From: Streptomyces sp. NBC_01478
GTDB taxonomy: Bacteria; Actinomycetota; Actinomycetes; Streptomycetales; Streptomycetaceae
Length of the DNA stretch: 64,000 nucleotides
Direction: 5' to 3'
Assembly (NCBI RefSeq): GCF_036227225.1
Contig: NZ_CP109444.1
Span: 2,709,501-2,773,500, forward strand
The notes beneath the pieces are model-generated. The model was given only the letters and a program-made list of their open reading frames with translations, was not told where the DNA came from and ran no database searches. Shown here in pieces: positions 21,384 through 51,848 of this stretch; the stretch's first letter is position 1; the number at the start of each line of letters is the position of its first letter. The position numbers were made by a program, and so were the translations under genes.

Positions 21384-22544
21384 TCAGACCAGCGTCCTGA
21401 TGTGGTCCGGCGACGTCAACTCCGCCCGTCGCACGATCAGTTCACGGCCCAGCAGCAACGTCCGCCGAGACGCCGGCGCCGGATCCGGCAGCGTCGTCAG
21501 GTCGGTCAGGTGGGCGAAACCGATGATGCGGCGGACGATCTCCGTGCCGGCGTAGCCGACGGAGTCGGTCCAGACGCGGGACAGGAAGCGGTCGAGGTAG
21601 GCGTCGTCGAAGAAGGTGTCGACCCGGGTGGACCAGAGGCGGCGGAACTCGGTCTCGAACGCCGCCCAGGACAGCCGGAGTTGGTCGCCGTGGTCGGACA
21701 ACGTGCCCAGCTCACGCGCCCGTTCCTCCGACACCAGCACGTTCGCCCAGTACAGGCCGAGGTCGTAGCCGATCGGGCCGACGAAGGAGAACTCGGGGTC
21801 GAAGACCCGTACCACGGGGGCGCCTTCGCGCTCGCCGACCATGACACTGCCGGTGTGCAGGTCACCGTGGAGGAGTGCCTGCGCGCTGGTCATGAAGGTG
21901 TACCGGAGATCGGCGACCTCCGTGCGCAGCCGGGTGTCCGCGCGGAACTCGGCGGCGAGGTCGGCCAACTCCGGGAGCCAGTGGTTGTGTTCGTGCTCGA
22001 TGTACGGCTCGGAGAGCACCACGTCCTCGGTGATCTTGCACAGCTCGGGACTCACCGAGGTCGCGATCAGCGCCTTGCGGTCGGCGGACGACATACCGAA
22101 GTCACTGGTCGCGAAGGCGAGTTGGGCGACGAACTCGCCGATCCGGGCCGAGGTGTCCGGGCCGTACGACGCGCCCTCGTTGAGGACCGTGCGCAGGACC
22201 TCCAGGTCGGACATGTCCTCCATGACGAGGGCGTAGTTGTCGGCGTCGTAGCCGTGGATCGCCGGGATCTTGTCGGGGGCGACGCGGGCCACCTGTTCGT
22301 AGGCCCGGGCCTCGGCGTCGGCGCGCTCGGGGCTCATCGGCCAGGAGGGGCCGGCGACCCGTACCCAGGGCAGCGCCTGCTTGATCGCGAGGCGGTGGCT
22401 GCCGTCGGCGTTCGACGCGAGGAACACCCGGTTCATGTTGCCGTCCGACACCTCACGGACGTGGATGTCGGTCACGTCCGCCCAGTGGCCGCGCTCGTGC
22501 AGGTAGGCCGGGATGTCGTCGGTCTCCAGGATGCGGTAGCCCAT
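21384..22544 (-). CDS. mtnK: S-methyl-5-thioribose kinase
   Basis: The 386-residue protein begins MGYRILETDDIPAYLHERG and has the kinase-fold signatures of MtnK: EVSDGNMNRVFL, LAIKQALPWVRVAGPSWPMSPERA, the catalytic loop LLHGDLHTGSVMV and the metal-binding FDPEFSFVGPIGYDLG. It phosphorylates methylthioribose to methylthioribose-1-phosphate in methionine salvage. The ATG has GAGGAG upstream. It is the last gene of a minus-strand unit (binding protein, ATPase, repeat protein, permease, mtnK), 22 bases after the permease. This linkage is the main reason to think the importer carries methylthioribose. Confidence 0.95.
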   Translation of the reverse strand: MGYRILETDDIPAYLHERGHWADVTDIHVREVSDGNMNRVFLASNADGSHRLAIKQALPWVRVAGPSWPMSPERADAEARAYEQVARVAPDKIPAIHGYDADNYALVMEDMSDLEVLRTVLNEGASYGPDTSARIGEFVAQLAFATSDFGMSSADRKALIATSVSPELCKITEDVVLSEPYIEHEHNHWLPELADLAAEFRADTRLRTEVADLRYTFMTSAQALLHGDLHTGSVMVGEREGAPVVRVFDPEFSFVGPIGYDLGLYWANVLVSEERARELGTLSDHGDQLRLSWAAFETEFRRLWSTRVDTFFDDAYLDRFLSRVWTDSVGYAGTEIVRRIIGFAHLTDLTTLPDPAPASRRTLLLGRELIVRRAELTSPDHIRTLV

Positions 22545-22566: not shown

Positions 22567-23613
22567 TTATGCGGTGCGGCGCTTGGACAGGGTGAAGCTG
22601 AAGACCAGGGCGAGGATGAGGACCGCGCCCTCGACCACGTCCTGTGTGTAGTAGGGCAGGCCCTTGATGGTCAGACCGGTGGTGATGATGCCGATGAGGA
22701 CGGCTCCCAGGGCCGTGCCCCAGACGTTCGGGCGGCCCCGGCCGAGCACCGACGTGCCGACCAGCGCGACGGCGACCGCTTCGAGGAGTTGGCTGGTCCC
22801 CGCGCTCACGTCACCCTGGCCGATGCGGGACGCCAGGATCAGGCCGCCGATGGAGGCGAGGACGCCGGAGAGGACGTAGGCGAGGGCCCGGTACGCGCCG
22901 ACGCGGATGCCGGCCAGGCGGGAGGCCTCGGGGTTGGCGCCGATGGCGTACAGCACGCGGCCCCAGCGGGTGCGGGCCAGGAACACCCAGGCGACGACGG
23001 TCAACGCGCCGAAGATCAGCACGGAGATGGGGATGCCGAGCATCGTGCCGCGGTCGATGCGCAGGAAGCCGTCGGTGAACTTGCCCGGGGCGGTGGTGCC
23101 GTCTGACTGGGTCATGCCGGCGGAGATGGACTGGCCGTCGACCAGGATGAGTTTGGTGCCCTGGATGACGAACATGGTGCCGAGGGTGGCCAGCATGTCC
23201 GGGATCTTCATGACCACGATCAGCAGCGCGTTCAGCAGCCCGGCCAGCGCGCCCGCCGCGATCACGGCGAGGATCGCGACCGTGCCGACCTGGTTGTACG
23301 TCACCATCGTCTTCGCGGCGACGGTGACACCGAGCCCGGCGACCGCGCCGACGGACATGTCCATTCCGCCGACGGCCATGGTGACGGTGACACCGAGGCC
23401 GAGGATCGCTGCGACGGAGACGTACCGGAGGGTGTCGAGGAGGGTCGCCGACTCCCGGAAGGAGCCCTCGCTCAGCGCGAAGTACAGGAAGAGCGCGACC
23501 GTGACGAAGATGAAGCCGTATTTGATGACGGCGTTCTGGACGAGCACGGCGGTGGAGACGGCGGGCGGCGCCGCGGCCTTCGGTGCGGTCTCGGAGCTCT
23601 GGGTGGTGGTCAT
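22567..23613 (-). CDS. Rbs-type ABC transporter permease
   Basis: The 348-residue protein is a BPD_transp_2 (RbsC-like) permease with about ten hydrophobic segments. Characteristic parts are LLDTLRYVSVAAILGLGVTVTMAVGGMDMSVGA, GALAGLLNALLIVVMKIPDMLATLGTM and RTRWGRVLYAIGANPEASRLAGI (the ATPase-coupling EAA-like loop). It probably moves methylthioribose or a related pentose, judged from the downstream mtnK. The ATG at 23611-23613 overlaps the stop of the repeat-protein gene as ATGA, and a CAGGAAG site lies inside that upstream gene, so translation of the two is coupled. Confidence 0.93.
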   Translation of the reverse strand: MTTTQSSETAPKAAAPPAVSTAVLVQNAVIKYGFIFVTVALFLYFALSEGSFRESATLLDTLRYVSVAAILGLGVTVTMAVGGMDMSVGAVAGLGVTVAAKTMVTYNQVGTVAILAVIAAGALAGLLNALLIVVMKIPDMLATLGTMFVIQGTKLILVDGQSISAGMTQSDGTTAPGKFTDGFLRIDRGTMLGIPISVLIFGALTVVAWVFLARTRWGRVLYAIGANPEASRLAGIRVGAYRALAYVLSGVLASIGGLILASRIGQGDVSAGTSQLLEAVAVALVGTSVLGRGRPNVWGTALGAVLIGIITTGLTIKGLPYYTQDVVEGAVLILALVFSFTLSKRRTA

Positions 23614-24107
23614 GGCGTACTTCCTGCCGTGGCTTCGTGTGCGGCTTCGTGCGGTGCGTCGTGCGCGGCTCCGTGCGGGGCGTCGTGCGCGGCTCCGTGC
23701 GGGGCGGGCATCAGAAAGGCGCCGTGGGACTCGACTACCGGCGTCGGACGGGCACCGCCGAACCGGTCCGCCGGCATCACGCGGACGCGACCGAACCGGT
23801 CTGCGGGCATCACGCGGGCGCGGCCGAACCGGTCTGCCGGCATCAGACCGACGCCACCAGACTCGTCCGCCGGCATCAGACGAGCGGCGCCGAACTGGCC
23901 TGCGGGTACCACGCGGACGCCGCCCATCGGATCTGCCGCCGTCACACGGACACCCTCGAACGGGCCCGTGGGCATCACCCGGACGCGGCCGAACAGACCT
24001 ACCGGCATCAGACCGACGCCGCCGGACGGCTCTACGGGCACCACGCTGGCGCCGCCCACCAGGCCTGACCTCGTCAGTCGCACCCCACCGAACCGCCTCG
24101 CCGACAT
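23610..24107 (-). CDS. Protein of twelve 11-residue repeats, coupled within the ABC operon
   Basis: This 165-residue protein is not recognised. From residue 4 to 135 it consists of twelve tandem 11-residue units with consensus DRFGGVRVMPA, most regular near DRFGRVRVMPA. Three 8-residue units close to PHGAAHDA follow. The start overlaps the ATPase stop (TGATG; a GTG three bases earlier gives a GTGA overlap), and its own stop overlaps the permease start (ATGA). Many differences between units are silent or conservative third-base changes, and about three quarters of third codon positions are G or C, both supporting translation in this frame. It has no signal peptide or membrane helix. It could be a soluble accessory of the importer, or mainly a spacer for coupled translation. 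Confidence 0.6.
   Translation of the reverse strand: MSARRFGGVRLTRSGLVGGASVVPVEPSGGVGLMPVGLFGRVRVMPTGPFEGVRVTAADPMGGVRVVPAGQFGAARLMPADESGGVGLMPADRFGRARVMPADRFGRVRVMPADRFGGARPTPVVESHGAFLMPAPHGAAHDAPHGAAHDAPHEAAHEATAGSTP
23631..24098 (-). repeat. 33-bp and 24-bp tandem repeats inside the coding region
   Basis: Twelve contiguous, diverged 33-bp units span 23703-24098, followed on the minus strand by three 24-bp units at 23631-23702. There are no spacers between units and unit length is a multiple of three, so this is a coding minisatellite and not a CRISPR array. Confidence 0.85.
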
Positions 24108-25651
24108 CACACCGACGCCGAAATCGTCTGGATCACCCGATCGCGTTCCGCCTCTTCGCCGTACGCGTCGAGGTGGATCTCCCCGGCCGCCAGGACCACG
24201 ACCCGGTCGGCGATCTCCAGGACCTCGTCCACGTCGGCGGAGAGGACAAGCACAGCCGCACCCTCCGCAGCCAGCGCACGCGCCCTGCGGCCGATGTCGC
24301 GGCGTGCGCCGATGTCCACGCCTCGGAACGGCTCGTCCAGGATGAGGACACGAGGGGTGTGTGCGAGCCAGCGGCCGACGACGACCTTCTGCTGGTTGCC
24401 GCCGGAGAGCTCCTCCACCGTGCTGTGCTCGTCGCGGGCGACGACGCCGAGGGCGTCGATGGTCTCGCGGCCGAGGGCGTCCTCCTTCGCCGTGTTCACG
24501 AGTCCGCCCCGGGACAGGGACTTGAGGAACGGCAGCGAGATGTTCTGCGCCACCGACCAGCCGGGAACGAGCGCGTCGGCGTGCCTGTCCTCGGGGACGA
24601 GGTGGACGCCGGCGCGGATCGCGTCGGCGGGGCGGCGGGGCGCGTAGGGCTCGCCGTCGAGGGTGACCGTGCCGGTGGCGAAGGGCTCGGCGCCGAACAG
24701 GCCACGGGCGAGTTCCGTCTTACCCGCGCCCAACAGGCCTACGACGCCGGTGACTTCACCGGCGCGGAGGTCGAGGTCGAGGGGTGCGCGGCCGTCGAAA
24801 AGGTGGACGCCGCGCAGACCGAGGACGACGTTCCCGTGCTCGCCGCCGCGCTGCGGGCGGGCGCTCGTCGCCTCGTGGGCCTGGGCGAGCATCGCGCGCA
24901 GGGCGCTGTCCCAGTCGAAGGGCTTGACCTGGTCGTCGGTGAGACCGCCGTCCCGCAGGACGACCAGCCGGTCCGCGAGCGCGTCGATCTCGCCGAGGCG
25001 GTGGGAGACGTAGAGGACCGCGATGCCGTCGTCGCGCATCTTCTCGACGAGGGCGAAGAGCCGCTCCGCCTCGGCGGCGGAGAGCGCCGAGGTCGGTTCG
25101 TCGAGGATGAGCAGCCGGGGGCGGGTGGCGAGGGCGCGGGCCAGGATGAGCAACTGGCGGTCGGAGATGCCCAGTTCGGTGACGTCCCGGCGCAACACGG
25201 CGTCGCTCCAGTCCAGCCCCAGCGCGGCCTGGATCTCGCGGGCGCGGGCCAGCACGCGGCGACCGTTCAGGAACGGGTTGCCACGGCGTGTGGCCAACTC
25301 CTCGAACACCAGGTTCTCGGCGACCGTGAGGCCGGGCACGATGCCCTCGCCGATCCGCTGGTGGACCGTCTGGATGCCCAACTGCCGGGCGGCCGACGGA
25401 GATTGGAGAGCCGCGGGCTCCCCTGCGACCCGCACCTCCCCGCCGTGGTCCGTGTGCACGCCCGACAGGATCTTGATCAGCGTGGACTTGCCCGCGCCGT
25501 TGGCGCCGAGCAGCGCGACCACGCTGCCCGGTGCGATGTCGAGCGAGACGGAGGCCAGCACCGTCTTGCCGCCGAAGGCCATGCTGACGTCGCGGAGCGA
25601 GACCGCGACGTCAACAGCCGCCACGTCAACTGCCTTGTCAGTGGGCGACAT
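24107..25651 (-). CDS. Rbs-type ABC transporter ATP-binding protein (two ABC domains)
   Basis: The 514-residue protein has two fused nucleotide-binding domains, as in RbsA. The first has Walker A LLGANGAGKSTLIK and Walker B RLLILDEPTSALS. The second has GLLGAGKTEL, signature LSGGNQQKVVVGRW and RVLILDEPFRGVDIG. It energises uptake of a sugar by the neighbouring binding protein and permease. The ATG at 25649-25651 overlaps the end of the binding-protein gene by 14 bases, and its stop overlaps the start of the repeat-protein gene, so the operon is translated as a tightly coupled unit. Confidence 0.93.
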   Translation of the reverse strand: MSPTDKAVDVAAVDVAVSLRDVSMAFGGKTVLASVSLDIAPGSVVALLGANGAGKSTLIKILSGVHTDHGGEVRVAGEPAALQSPSAARQLGIQTVHQRIGEGIVPGLTVAENLVFEELATRRGNPFLNGRRVLARAREIQAALGLDWSDAVLRRDVTELGISDRQLLILARALATRPRLLILDEPTSALSAAEAERLFALVEKMRDDGIAVLYVSHRLGEIDALADRLVVLRDGGLTDDQVKPFDWDSALRAMLAQAHEATSARPQRGGEHGNVVLGLRGVHLFDGRAPLDLDLRAGEVTGVVGLLGAGKTELARGLFGAEPFATGTVTLDGEPYAPRRPADAIRAGVHLVPEDRHADALVPGWSVAQNISLPFLKSLSRGGLVNTAKEDALGRETIDALGVVARDEHSTVEELSGGNQQKVVVGRWLAHTPRVLILDEPFRGVDIGARRDIGRRARALAAEGAAVLVLSADVDEVLEIADRVVVLAAGEIHLDAYGEEAERDRVIQTISASV

Positions 25652-26735
25652 TGGGGATCCAGTCCGCCGTGCTCACCTTGGAGAGGTTCAGGGCGGGCAG
25701 GGCCGCGCGCAGTTGGTCCATGTTCTCGATCTTGTTCTTGCGCAGGAAGTCCTGCGTGATCGCGACGGCCGGGAAGTCGACGGTGGTCTTGTTGAGCTGA
25801 CCGGCCAGTTCGAGGGCGGCCGTACGGACGACGGCGGCGCCGACCGCCGACGGGTCGGTGCCGGCGGTGGCGACCCACGGGCTGTTGGCGGCGGTCATGT
25901 TCTGGATGTCGGCGTTGGAGACGTCCGCGCCGAAGACCTTCACCTTGCTCTGGAGCTTCTTGTTCTGCACGGCGAGGAGCGTGCCCTTGGCCAGCTCGTC
26001 GTAGGGGGCGAACACGCCCGCCACGTCGGAGTGTTGGGTCAGCGCTGCGGAGACGAGGGGAACGTTGTCGGTGGCCGTGGAGTCGGTGACCTTGCCGACC
26101 TTGAACTCCTGCTGCCAGCCGTTGGCGTCGACGGCGGTCTTCCAGACGGAGTTGCGCTTGTCGAGGGCCGCGTAGCCGGCCACGTTGACGTAGCCGACCT
26201 TGGCGTTCTTGCCGACCGTCTGGGCCATCACGTCGAGGACGGCCTTGGCCATGCTGGCGTCGTCCTGCTCGGTGCTGATCACGGACTTGTTGGTCTGGTC
26301 GACGTCGTAGACGACGACCTTGATGCCCTTCTTCACCGCCTGGTCGATCTCGGGCTGGATCGTGGACGGGAAGCCGTGGTCGACGATGATCGCCTGCGCG
26401 CCGGAGTTGATCGCCGAGGACAGGTCGGTGGCCTGCTTGGCGTTGTCGGCCTGCGCGTCGTACACGGTCAGGTCGATACCGAGCGCCTTGGCCTGCGCCT
26501 TCGCGCCGTTGCCCCACTGCTCGAAGTAGTCGCCGGCGCCGCTCTGCCGCACCAGGGCGACCTTGACCGTGCCCTTGCTGAAGGGGGCCGGCTTCTTGCC
26601 CGTGGCGGCCGAGGCCGAGGCGGCCGTGTCGGCGCTGCTCTTCGAGGCGTCCGTGGACTGCGAGCAGCCCGCCAGGAGGAGGGCGGAGACGGAGGCCAGC
26701 GAGAGCGCGGCGAGGGGGACGCGGATACGGGACAT
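25638..26735 (-). CDS. Sugar-binding lipoprotein of the Rbs-type importer
   Basis: The 365-residue protein has a signal peptide ending in the lipobox LLLAGC (C24) and a Ser/Ala-rich linker. The rest is a Peripla_BP_4 (RbsB-like) domain: VKVALVRQSGAGDYFEQWGNGA, AINSGAQAIIVDHGFPSTIQP, and GVFAPYDELAKGTLLAV. It should capture the substrate outside the membrane. The ligand is inferred to be methylthioribose from the linked mtnK and the divergent mtnD-mtnC-mtnB. The ATG at 26733-26735 has AGGAG upstream; the longer frame adds no signal-like sequence. It is the first gene of the minus-strand unit. Confidence 0.92.
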   Translation of the reverse strand: MSRIRVPLAALSLASVSALLLAGCSQSTDASKSSADTAASASAATGKKPAPFSKGTVKVALVRQSGAGDYFEQWGNGAKAQAKALGIDLTVYDAQADNAKQATDLSSAINSGAQAIIVDHGFPSTIQPEIDQAVKKGIKVVVYDVDQTNKSVISTEQDDASMAKAVLDVMAQTVGKNAKVGYVNVAGYAALDKRNSVWKTAVDANGWQQEFKVGKVTDSTATDNVPLVSAALTQHSDVAGVFAPYDELAKGTLLAVQNKKLQSKVKVFGADVSNADIQNMTAANSPWVATAGTDPSAVGAAVVRTAALELAGQLNKTTVDFPAVAITQDFLRKNKIENMDQLRAALPALNLSKVSTADWIPNVAH

Positions 26736-27206
26736 GAGGGGCTCCTGGTGCGGGTACTGCCGAGGTGATGGAAGGACGGAGTGCTCACCCGGAGCAGGGG
26801 GCGAAAACGCGCCATCGCACACGGGGTGCGCCCTCGCACGAGCGGCTGGGACAGGCGGCGGGCGGCCCGGGATGCGGGATCGCGCCGGTGGCTCCGGGTG
26901 TGGTCAGCGACAGCGGGCTGTGGTCGACCGGAGCAAGTCCACGTACAGCCGCCGCACGAGCAGCAGCGTCTTCATAAACAGATCATGAGAACGATTCCAG
27001 CCATTGGTCAAAGGGATGGAAGCGGTTTCTCATCAGGTGAGACAACGACTACGTCACATCAGGCCTGCTCACCGACGCCGGTTACCATCACATAACCGGC
27101 CCCGACCCGGTACGACGGGCCGCGCTGTACACGCTTTCCGCCCCCCACCGGTCCGGCGGCCGTCTCGCTATCCGGACATCACGCCCACTTTTTCGGAGTT
27201 GCTCCC
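26736..27206. promoter_or_regulatory. Divergent promoter region of the mtn operons
   Basis: These 471 bases separate the importer operon from mtnD. No gene is supported. Two inverted copies of a TGGAA-N-CG-TTCTCAT-like element lie at 26983-26999 and 27017-27035, and perfect 8-base arms GCCGGTTA / TAACCGGC lie at 27077-27084 and 27093-27100. This arrangement suggests one regulator controlling both directions. The rest, 26736-26980, shows nothing I can name. Confidence 0.5.
26983..27035. promoter_or_regulatory. Candidate operator pair between the mtn transcription units
   Basis: TCATGAGAACGATTCCA (26983-26999) and TGGAAGCGGTTTCTCATCA (27017-27035) are inverted copies of one element. The GGAAGCGGTTTC core resembles operators of LacI-type sugar regulators. 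No LacI-type gene lies in the window, so the regulator is not identified. Confidence 0.45.
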
Positions 27207-50596: not shown

Positions 50597-51709
50597 CTAG
50601 ACCGAAGCCTTCGCCTTGCGGTAGAGCACCGCGCCCGCCAGCAGCGCGCCCGCGCCGACCGGCAGGGCGAGGCCCAGCGGCAGCTCGCTACCGGTGTGCG
50701 CGAGCTGCGGGGCCCCCTGGGAGTGGACGGCGGACTGCGCACCGGGCTGGTTCACGTGCGCGGAACCGGTCGGCGTGTGAACGCCCTTGATCGGCGAGGT
50801 ACCGCCCGGCGAGGCGGGGTGACCGGGTGTGCCGGGGTGGCTCGGGGTCCCGGGGTGGCCCGGGTGACCTGGAGTCCCGGGGTGGCCCGGAGTCCCCGGA
50901 GGGGTCGTCCCGTGACCGCCGCCCGGAGGCGTGCCGTGGTGGCCACCGCCGCCGCCATGGTGACCGCCACCGTGGTTGCCACTGCCACCGTGGTGACCGC
51001 CTCCACCGTTGTGGCCTCCACCGTCGTGACCGCCACCATGGTCACCTCCGCCACCGTGGTGCCCCCCGCCGCCGTGATGGCCGCCTCCGCCACCGTGATG
51101 GCCGCCCCCACCGTCGTGACCGCCCCCGTGGTGCCCCCCACCGCCGGGAGGCGTCCCGTGGTCGTGGCCGCCGCTGTTCCAACTCCCGCCGTTGGCACAG
51201 TCGTTGCCGGTGACGGCGTTGCCGATGCCGATGACGTCGACGCTGTTGCCGCACACGTTCACCGGCGCGTCGATCGGTACCTGGACGTGGTTGCCCGAGC
51301 CGACACCGGGCGAGCCGGAAGCGTGTCCGCCGGCGTGCGAGCCCCCTGAGCCTCCGTGCGCGCCGTGTCCGCCGGAGCCGCCCGAGTTGCCGTAACCCCC
51401 CGAGTCGCCGTACCCACCGGACGAGCCGTGACCCCCCGAACCCCCATGGCCGTGACCACTGACGCCGCCCTGGTTGGCGCACTTGTTGCCGACGGCCGGG
51501 TTGAGGATCCCGACCACGTTCACGGTGTTGCCGCAGACGTTGACCGGCACATGCACCGGTGCCTGCACGGTGTTGCCGGACAGTACGCCGGGCGAGTTCG
51601 AACTGGACCCGTTCGCACCCGAGTCCGCGTGGGCGACACCGCCCGCGGCGGCGATCACCCCGGTCGCGGCCGCCATGGTCATCAAGCTCTTTCGAGTGAC
51701 CTGTCGCAT
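50597..51709 (-). CDS. chpC: Long chaplin with His/Gly-rich linker and sortase signal
   Basis: The 370-residue precursor has a signal peptide (SLMTMAAATGVIAAAGGVAHAD) and two chaplin domains, each with two Cys (VNVCGNTVNVVGILNPAVGNKC and VNVCGNSVDVIGIGNAVTGNDC in outline). A linker of about 150 residues follows, made of GGGHH, HDGGG and GHPGTP units. The end carries LAHTG, a hydrophobic helix and KAKA, the LAxTG cell-wall sorting signal used by Streptomyces class E sortases. Long chaplins are anchored on aerial hyphae and recruit short chaplins to form the hydrophobic surface. The very His-rich linker is longer than I recall for S. coelicolor ChpC. The ATG at 51707-51709 has AGGGGGGA upstream. 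The gene follows chpH. Confidence 0.9.
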   Translation of the reverse strand: MRQVTRKSLMTMAAATGVIAAAGGVAHADSGANGSSSNSPGVLSGNTVQAPVHVPVNVCGNTVNVVGILNPAVGNKCANQGGVSGHGHGGSGGHGSSGGYGDSGGYGNSGGSGGHGAHGGSGGSHAGGHASGSPGVGSGNHVQVPIDAPVNVCGNSVDVIGIGNAVTGNDCANGGSWNSGGHDHGTPPGGGGHHGGGHDGGGGHHGGGGGHHGGGGHHGGGGDHGGGHDGGGHNGGGGHHGGSGNHGGGHHGGGGGHHGTPPGGGHGTTPPGTPGHPGTPGHPGHPGTPSHPGTPGHPASPGGTSPIKGVHTPTGSAHVNQPGAQSAVHSQGAPQLAHTGSELPLGLALPVGAGALLAGAVLYRKAKASV

Positions 51710-51760
51710 TGCTGAATTCCCCCCTGCCTTCATTCCTGACTGAAATTCCTCGCGCGACTT

Positions 51761-51832
51761 CTCGATCGACCTCTAGCTCGACTTCTAGCTCGACTTCTAG
51801 TTCGACCTATAGCTCGACTTCTCGATCGATTT
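51761..51832 (-). repeat. Six tandem 12-bp repeats in the chpC leader
   Basis: Six contiguous 12-base units close to CTAGCTCGACTT (plus strand) span 51761-51832, two of them identical. They lie between the chpH terminator and the chpC start codon, so they are in the chpC promoter or 5' leader. Confidence 0.85.
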
Positions 51833-51848
51833 CTCGCGCAAAGACCGT

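Follow-up and report, generated by a model that had tools for sequence, protein, structure and literature searches.

Mycobacterial interspersed repetitive units (MIRUs), found for example between senX3 and regX3, are repetitive and apparently mobile elements which form a dispersed family of homologous repeats. In the 64,000-nt stretch of Streptomyces sp. NBC_01478 analysed here (contig NZ_CP109444.1; the whole stretch is referred to as the window), a 165-codon open frame carrying a tandem repeat array lies between the ATPase and permease genes of an Rbs-type ABC importer and is MIRU-like in geometry alone, meeting the next gene at -4 nt through an ATGA (23610-23613). In contrast to MIRUs, the array was found once in its genome, its units are copied from the 3' end of the upstream gene itself, it does not belong to a dispersed homologous family, and the frames at the same site in other lineages look unrelated; it works like a MIRU but is not a MIRU. 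Both ends of this frame, the relay frame hereafter, are ATGA/TGATG overlaps of the termination-reinitiation type described as coupling gene pairs (PMC6728339, PMC10666635), but the relay frame joins two such overlaps in series by about 9 to 165 codons without a recognisable protein. The intergenic small open reading frame (ORF) mgtQ of Salmonella, between mgtC and mgtB, also promotes translation of a downstream transporter; according to the cited passages of PMC8092293 it acts via alternative stem-loops and specific acidic codons, whereas no unusual fold and no conserved peptide were found in the window. Leader cistrons of bicistronic designs are likewise short ORFs, whose sole purpose is to bring a ribosome to the start that follows (PMC12548453), but they are engineered and do not bridge two natural genes. 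No description of relay frames of such a kind in Streptomyces was found among the top-ranked open-licence PMC titles.

The relay frame (23610..24107, minus strand) starts with the ATG of a TGATG (24105..24109, minus) that overlaps the ATPase stop and terminates with the TGA of an ATGA (23610..23613, minus) that overlaps the permease start, and it is open throughout, as reported in the preliminary description of this DNA. The ATPase gene ends in ...GTG TGA at 24107, and a GTG (GTGTGATG, 24108-24110) located one codon upstream of the ATG is in the relay frame too, which the ORF listing accordingly gives from 24110. Judging by its conservation in relatives, this frame is likely to be a translated relay carrying ribosomes from the end of the ATPase to the start of the permease, the frame being selected while the peptide is left free.

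The ATPase-permease spacer was compared in 72 distinct Streptomyces loci, including the window, obtained from the best 80 of 125 confirmed loci and from two genome searches (23 loci from 295 genomes, and 29 from 391 genomes, 22 of these being shared with the first) after removal of identical-sequence duplicates and with an identity cut-off of 85%. L052, for which no ATPase was found upstream, and L056 (Streptomyces sp. AC555_RSS877), whose ATPase frame ends about 100 codons early by a frameshift or a sequencing error and whose spacer is undefinable, were dropped, and 15 distant loci (L097-L100, L102-L112) as well as L089 and L091-L093 (below 85% identity) were treated apart. Permease starts were inferred from homology, an in-frame ATGACC being preferred; even without this preference, alignment placed the start at ATGAC in the listed Streptomyces loci except L083 (3 bases off), L089 and L056. 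Loci were classed by a start codon overlapping the ATPase stop (TGATG or GTGTGA, which set one frame in both cases) and then by openness. These start classes were defined after a first look at the data, and only the GTGTGA class has openness among its defining features. Quick methods were used for trees, gene calls and accessibilities.

The spacer ranges from 23 to 493 nt in these loci and is often of unrelated sequence. Of the 42 loci in which an open frame begins at the ATPase stop, 39 have a spacer length of 1 mod 3, with the frame ending on the permease ATGA, and three (L007, L023 and L084) have 2 mod 3, with the frame entering the permease in frame; no locus is 0 mod 3. The products of L007, L023 and L084 are predicted to be N-terminally extended permeases beginning at the ATPase stop. 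Loci that lack a start, or whose frame contains an internal stop, are distributed as 18, 6 and 6 of 30 at 1, 2 and 0 mod 3 (9, 5 and 5 of 19 for those with no start alone), the phases of both groups being different with kinship ignored (Fisher p 0.001). The permease-kinase junction of the same 72 loci, at which a start overlaps the permease stop in only 3 and which is a control for phase drift only, shows no phase bias (24, 26 and 22 loci at 1, 2 and 0 mod 3). All 26 TGATG loci are open without the use of an openness criterion, with 0 stops in the relay frame and 22 and 5 stops in the other two frames, the window contributing 12 of the 22. Dinucleotide shuffles of these 26 spacers gave an expectation of 6.3 stops and zero stops in 0.1% of trials (4.2 stops and 0.8% without the window). 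Spacers of at least 60 nt are found in 21 of 42 loci with a relay frame and in 3 of 30 loci without it (p 0.0004, with a threshold picked after the data were seen). Lengths of 36, 37, 38, 39 and 40 nt occur in start-less loci, and lengths of 25, 37, 64, 169, 217, 274 and 493 nt in start-bearing ones.

Relatedness was taken into account with a tree computed by FastTree from the DNA of both genes, ATPase and permease, from which edge-disjoint pairs of loci differing in spacer length were drawn. With an open start frame the length difference is a multiple of three in 16 of 19 pairs, compared to 2 of 11 pairs without it (Fisher p 0.0012), and the 3 non-multiple pairs of the former group all involve in-frame fusions in the pairing inspected. 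Multiples of three account for 9 of 11 pairs among TGATG loci alone and for 2 of 9 among start-less loci alone, and parsimony-mapped length changes are multiples of three in a mean of 24.7 of 28.8 (open start) versus 4.7 of 17.7. The frame is kept, then, while length and sequence change, and neither the next junction nor the gaps of the genome at large show such a bias. The complete geometry, from stop overlap to start overlap, is present in the window, in the 39 open start-bearing loci and in 4 of 4 outgroup loci outside the main count, namely three Nocardia loci and S. sparsogenes, whose frames of 14-23 codons encode different peptides between the same end points.

The array of the window consists of twelve 33-bp (11-codon) units with the consensus DRFGGVRVMPA (23703..24098, minus) and three 24-bp (8-codon) units reading PHGAAHDA and variants (23631..23702, minus), an organisation which had been recognised from the start and is seen both in the in-frame layout and by Tandem Repeats Finder (33/66/99-bp array at 23738-24024, 24-bp array at 23631-23706). 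In the same layout, the row spanning the ATPase stop (24099..24131, minus), made of the last ATPase codons and the stop/start junction, is the founding copy: translated in the relay frame it gives PDDFGVGVMSA, in which the DRFGGVRVMPA unit can be recognised. The ATPase 3' end was compared with each of the 24 spacers of at least 60 nt, copies being scored at a shuffle p ≤0.005. Such copies are found in 7 of 24 spacers and every listed distance is a multiple of three: 99, 165, 264 and 330 nt in the window (all multiples of 33), 30, 60 and 90 nt in L035 (S. hokutonensis), 30 nt in L033 (S. xylophagus), 27 and 54 nt in L005, 60 nt in L022, 30 nt in L081, and 30, 57, 117 and 147 nt in L087. The remaining 17 spacers miss the p of 0.005 for ATPase-end copies (L018 p 0.035, L078 p 0.07, others higher). 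The array of the window is thus a tandem duplication of the ATPase end together with the stop/start junction, and duplications of this kind arose in several lineages.

The array is found in one place of the 12.1-Mb genome, a single contig (BLAST, E 0.001), and, among the matches listed, the unit pattern is exact only in the window, with scattered partial or mismatched matches elsewhere. Permease identity (96-98%) and tree single out six nearest relatives. Of these, L034, L036, L037 and L095 have 25-nt spacers and no array, and in the other two, L033 and L035, the arrays are shorter, at 67 and 127 nt, and advance in 30-bp steps. The unit length differs by one codon between the window and these two close relatives, the frame being kept again. 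Stretches similar to the 24-bp units were seen by eye in L039 and L040.

Other spacers are made of other DNA. By eye, L079 and L080 contain an 18-bp core (GGGCGCGGGGAACTGCGC) of a dispersed repeat, and L078, L082 and L018 similar sequence; the core has 73 copies in the genome of the window and 70, 93 and 100 copies in three relatives (reversed control, 0); L049 and L051 contain 12/24-bp repeats (by eye). The relay frame is open in all seven. The dispersed repeat sits in the ATPase-permease spacer of one clade, with the relay frame unbroken. At the sequence level, different DNA appears to solve the same problem, be it copies of the ATPase end, 12/24-bp repeats or a dispersed repeat. Direct contact of stop and start is usual in this importer family, as indicated by distant operons and by paralogues in the same genome: a candidate permease start at -8 to +12 of the ATPase stop is present in all 15 distant operons (15 of 15), and 11 of 17 paralogous permease matches are immediately preceded by an ATPase end. 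These matches fall at 10 places (two being copies of one sequence), with overlaps of -4 or -1 at 8 places (3 of the 8 read from the stop context) and of -8 and -11 at the other two.

The relay would function as follows. Ribosomes finishing the ATPase would reinitiate at the TGATG or GTGTGA, where its stop overlaps a start, and read through the spacer as far as the TGA overlapping the permease ATG. Having terminated there, they would reinitiate on the permease or help to load a ribosome on it. The relay would in this manner preserve the translational coupling of ATPase and permease despite a spacer far beyond the reinitiation distance of native gene pairs, for which reinitiation is described as nearly abolished at a spacing of about 20 nt (PMC10666635), and the translated spacer would no longer be naked RNA. 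The spacer of the window would have grown through tandem duplications, in frame, both of the ATPase 3' end including the stop/start junction (33-bp units) and of a 24-bp stretch next to the ribosome-binding site, the survivors being mainly in-frame size changes. The suggestion of the preliminary description that the frame could be a length-variable spacer tuning permease translation comes near to what the evidence supports, except that the frame and not the length is kept.

Whether ribosomes pass between operon genes by scanning the spacers or by the touching of stop and start is disputed. The frames of 39 of 42 natural spacers of 25 to 493 nt, many of them unrelated in sequence, end on the permease start and those of the other 3 run into the permease, which is evolutionary support for a translated spacer and for the importance of unbroken translation as far as the next start. 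A natural and quantifiable class of 'frame-only' genes, selected to be open and in register and not for a peptide, made of duplicated junctions or inserted dispersed repeats in several lineages and acting as ribosome carriers, is proposed only tentatively, at a little less than even chances in our estimate. If true, this class would amount to evolution's own spacing experiment, whereby continuous translation, not scanning, sustains coupling in these actinomycete operons. The relay frames are also a warning for annotation, as they resemble orphan repeat proteins yet need not encode a functional product, and the spacers are ready-made natural constructs for reporter tests.

Several observations weigh against a translated relay. 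In a genome control made of three 400-kb blocks and the window (1.26 Mb, own gene calls), for which openness was not required and in which many pairs are probably non-operonic, 81 of 351 co-directional gaps of 60-600 nt have an overlapping start, with phases of 29, 32 and 20 at 1, 2 and 0 mod 3, and 7 of them, window included, end exactly on the next start; likewise, 18 of 78 gaps of 20-60 nt have an overlapping start, with phases of 4, 11 and 3, and 3 end exactly. These unbiased gaps imply that the phase bias of the spacer is no automatic result of an overlapping start and no genome-wide rule, and a general rule of the genome was rejected on this basis. The open frame of the window taken alone is not significant, 11% of its dinucleotide-shuffled spacers being stop-free, and the permease frame on the same strand and two opposite-strand frames are stop-free in this spacer as well; being compatible with chance in the window, the frame owes its significance to the comparison across relatives. 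Furthermore, 11 GTGTGA loci have an internal stop (10 at 25-39 nt and one at 52 nt) and the relay is therefore not universal, while a relay that depends on a start leaves unexplained the start-less loci L085, L008 and L088, whose spacers of 67-118 nt are open and have lengths of 1 mod 3. The permease ribosome-binding site has a mean unpaired probability of 0.54 in long spacers versus 0.53 in short ones and, being no less accessible in the former, makes independent permease initiation possible. Finally, synthetic operons are described as losing coupling slowly over hundreds of nt (PMC10666635, PMC12548453).

Separately from this weighing, nine other gaps of the same genome (49-385 nt) run exactly from stop overlap to start overlap and may be missed small genes or further relays.

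Two explanations based on RNA were also considered and set aside, RNA structure offering no clear alternative. A sequestered permease start freed by translation does not agree with a ribosome-binding site that is as accessible in long spacers as in short ones. The mean unpaired probability of the permease AUG itself is 0.53 in TGATG loci versus 0.67-0.75 in the other classes (no significance test), and with this lower modelled accessibility RNA unfolding may contribute. A structured leader or other RNA element is not supported: 23400-24300 matches no Rfam family up to E 1, and the fold of the spacer is as in shuffles, an unusual stability not being found (-267.6 versus -269.7, standard deviation 7.3, in 30 base shuffles).

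Translation of the spacer could also have been selected against Rho-dependent termination or mRNA decay (polarity), with the coupling to the permease start being secondary. Polarity on untranslated RNA is established in the cited parts of PMC12548453, and the excess of long spacers among loci with a relay frame (21 of 42 versus 3 of 30) would be expected if they need such protection. Any translated frame would suffice for it, however, and an exact end on the permease ATG would not be needed, yet 39 of 42 loci have it and the other 3 fuse in frame; phase conservation extends to relay-bearing spacers as short as 25-40 nt, a size taken to be too short for Rho loading. This explanation is hence considered unlikely, and we infer from the positions of the end points that coupling rather than Rho protection is the selected effect.

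The preliminary description took the frame for an undescribed repeat protein, possibly a soluble accessory or a scaffold of the importer, translated for its peptide. Such a functional small protein would account for the conservation of the frame and of both its end points, and the codon score of the relay frame (5.8 over 164 codons) is the highest of the six window frames, yet it lies far under the score of 211 obtained by the permease over 348 codons (start and ribosome-site bonus included). No homologue of the peptide was found at E ≤0.01 among 1379 word-sharing candidates, a search that distant or low-complexity homologues could escape, and no Pfam family matches it. Many differences between units were previously described as silent or conservative, but a preference for silent change was not confirmed: the diversity by codon position is 0.31/0.38/0.38 and the ratio of non-synonymous to synonymous change (dN/dS) between units is 0.86, within the 0.79-1.44 of the other five frames. 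An amino-acid constraint between units was not detected, 42% of column-permuted arrays being as low or lower in a test of low power (12 units). At the same site in other lineages the peptides look unrelated, only L033, L035, L039 and L040 partly matching the window (by eye), and 4 of the 6 nearest relatives have 25-nt spacers with no array. The refuting outcome named in the preliminary description is found in part: ATPase and permease are indeed nearly joined in relatives and the dN/dS of the units is near 1, but most short spacers with a start at the ATPase stop retain the frame from this start to the ATGA and not a frame-shifted or stop-containing remnant. The functional repeat protein was consequently rejected on the homology search and the unit dN/dS, and we regard it as improbable; the frame is real but probably no functional protein, the peptide appearing to be a by-product with no sign of conservation.

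An untranslated and functionless minisatellite, open by chance as a GC-rich array of multiple-of-three repeats, is a very improbable source of the relay frame. Repeats of high GC content commonly lack stops in more than one frame, the window alone is compatible with chance (11% of its shuffles are stop-free), unit lengths that are multiples of three (33 and 24 bp) preserve whatever phase was established first, and the three start-less loci of 67-118 nt are open and 1 mod 3. Against this, the phase survives expansion by different units and insertions chiefly in loci whose ATPase stop is overlapped by a start, and neither the permease-kinase junction nor the genome-wide gaps have a phase bias. 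Entry into the relay frame by -1 ribosomal frameshifting near the ATPase stop, which would add a variable tail to the ATPase, has next to no plausibility. The relay frame does lie at -1 relative to the ATPase, and in the window no stop interrupts it over at least the 11 codons that precede the junction. A frameshift needs no start codon, however, whereas the phase conservation goes with the overlapping start, and inspection of the ATPase 3' end, without a dedicated search, revealed no obvious slippery sequence.

The genes around the relay frame are all on the minus strand. The ATPase (24107..25651, 514 amino acids) matches Pfam ABC_tran in two stretches (E 6.7e-48), and its start is overlapped by 14 nt by the gene of a substrate-binding protein (25638..26822, Pfam Peripla_BP_4), a spacing of -14 being found in 49 of the 59 loci where it is placeable. 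The permease (22567..23613, 348 codons) matches Pfam BPD_transp_2 (E 1.2e-39) and is preceded by an AGGAAG (23620..23625), the likely Shine-Dalgarno sequence, similar motifs being seen by eye upstream of the permease in relatives. The permease frame is stop-free across the whole spacer of the window (521 amino acids), but the window ORF listing gives no ATG, GTG or TTG in this frame upstream of 23613 and an N-terminal extension of the permease in the window is therefore unlikely. An APH-type kinase (21384..22544, Pfam APH) follows, a relative of which is found immediately 3' of the permease in 72 of 72 loci. It is taken as mtnK, a name inferred from the adjoining ARD, HAD and class II aldolase genes, and together with these genes and the periplasmic-binding-type protein it would fit a locus of methylthioribose salvage.

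Elsewhere in the window, the gene at 50597-51733 (minus) reads by eye like a long chaplin-type surface protein with two similar repeats containing conserved cysteines, an unusual His/Gly-rich repeat region between these chaplin-like repeats and a C-terminal LAHTG sorting-like motif. Just upstream of it, 51755-51834 consists of tandem 12-bp repeats (consensus CGACTTCTAGCT), AT-rich by eye, which probably lie in the 5' region of this gene.
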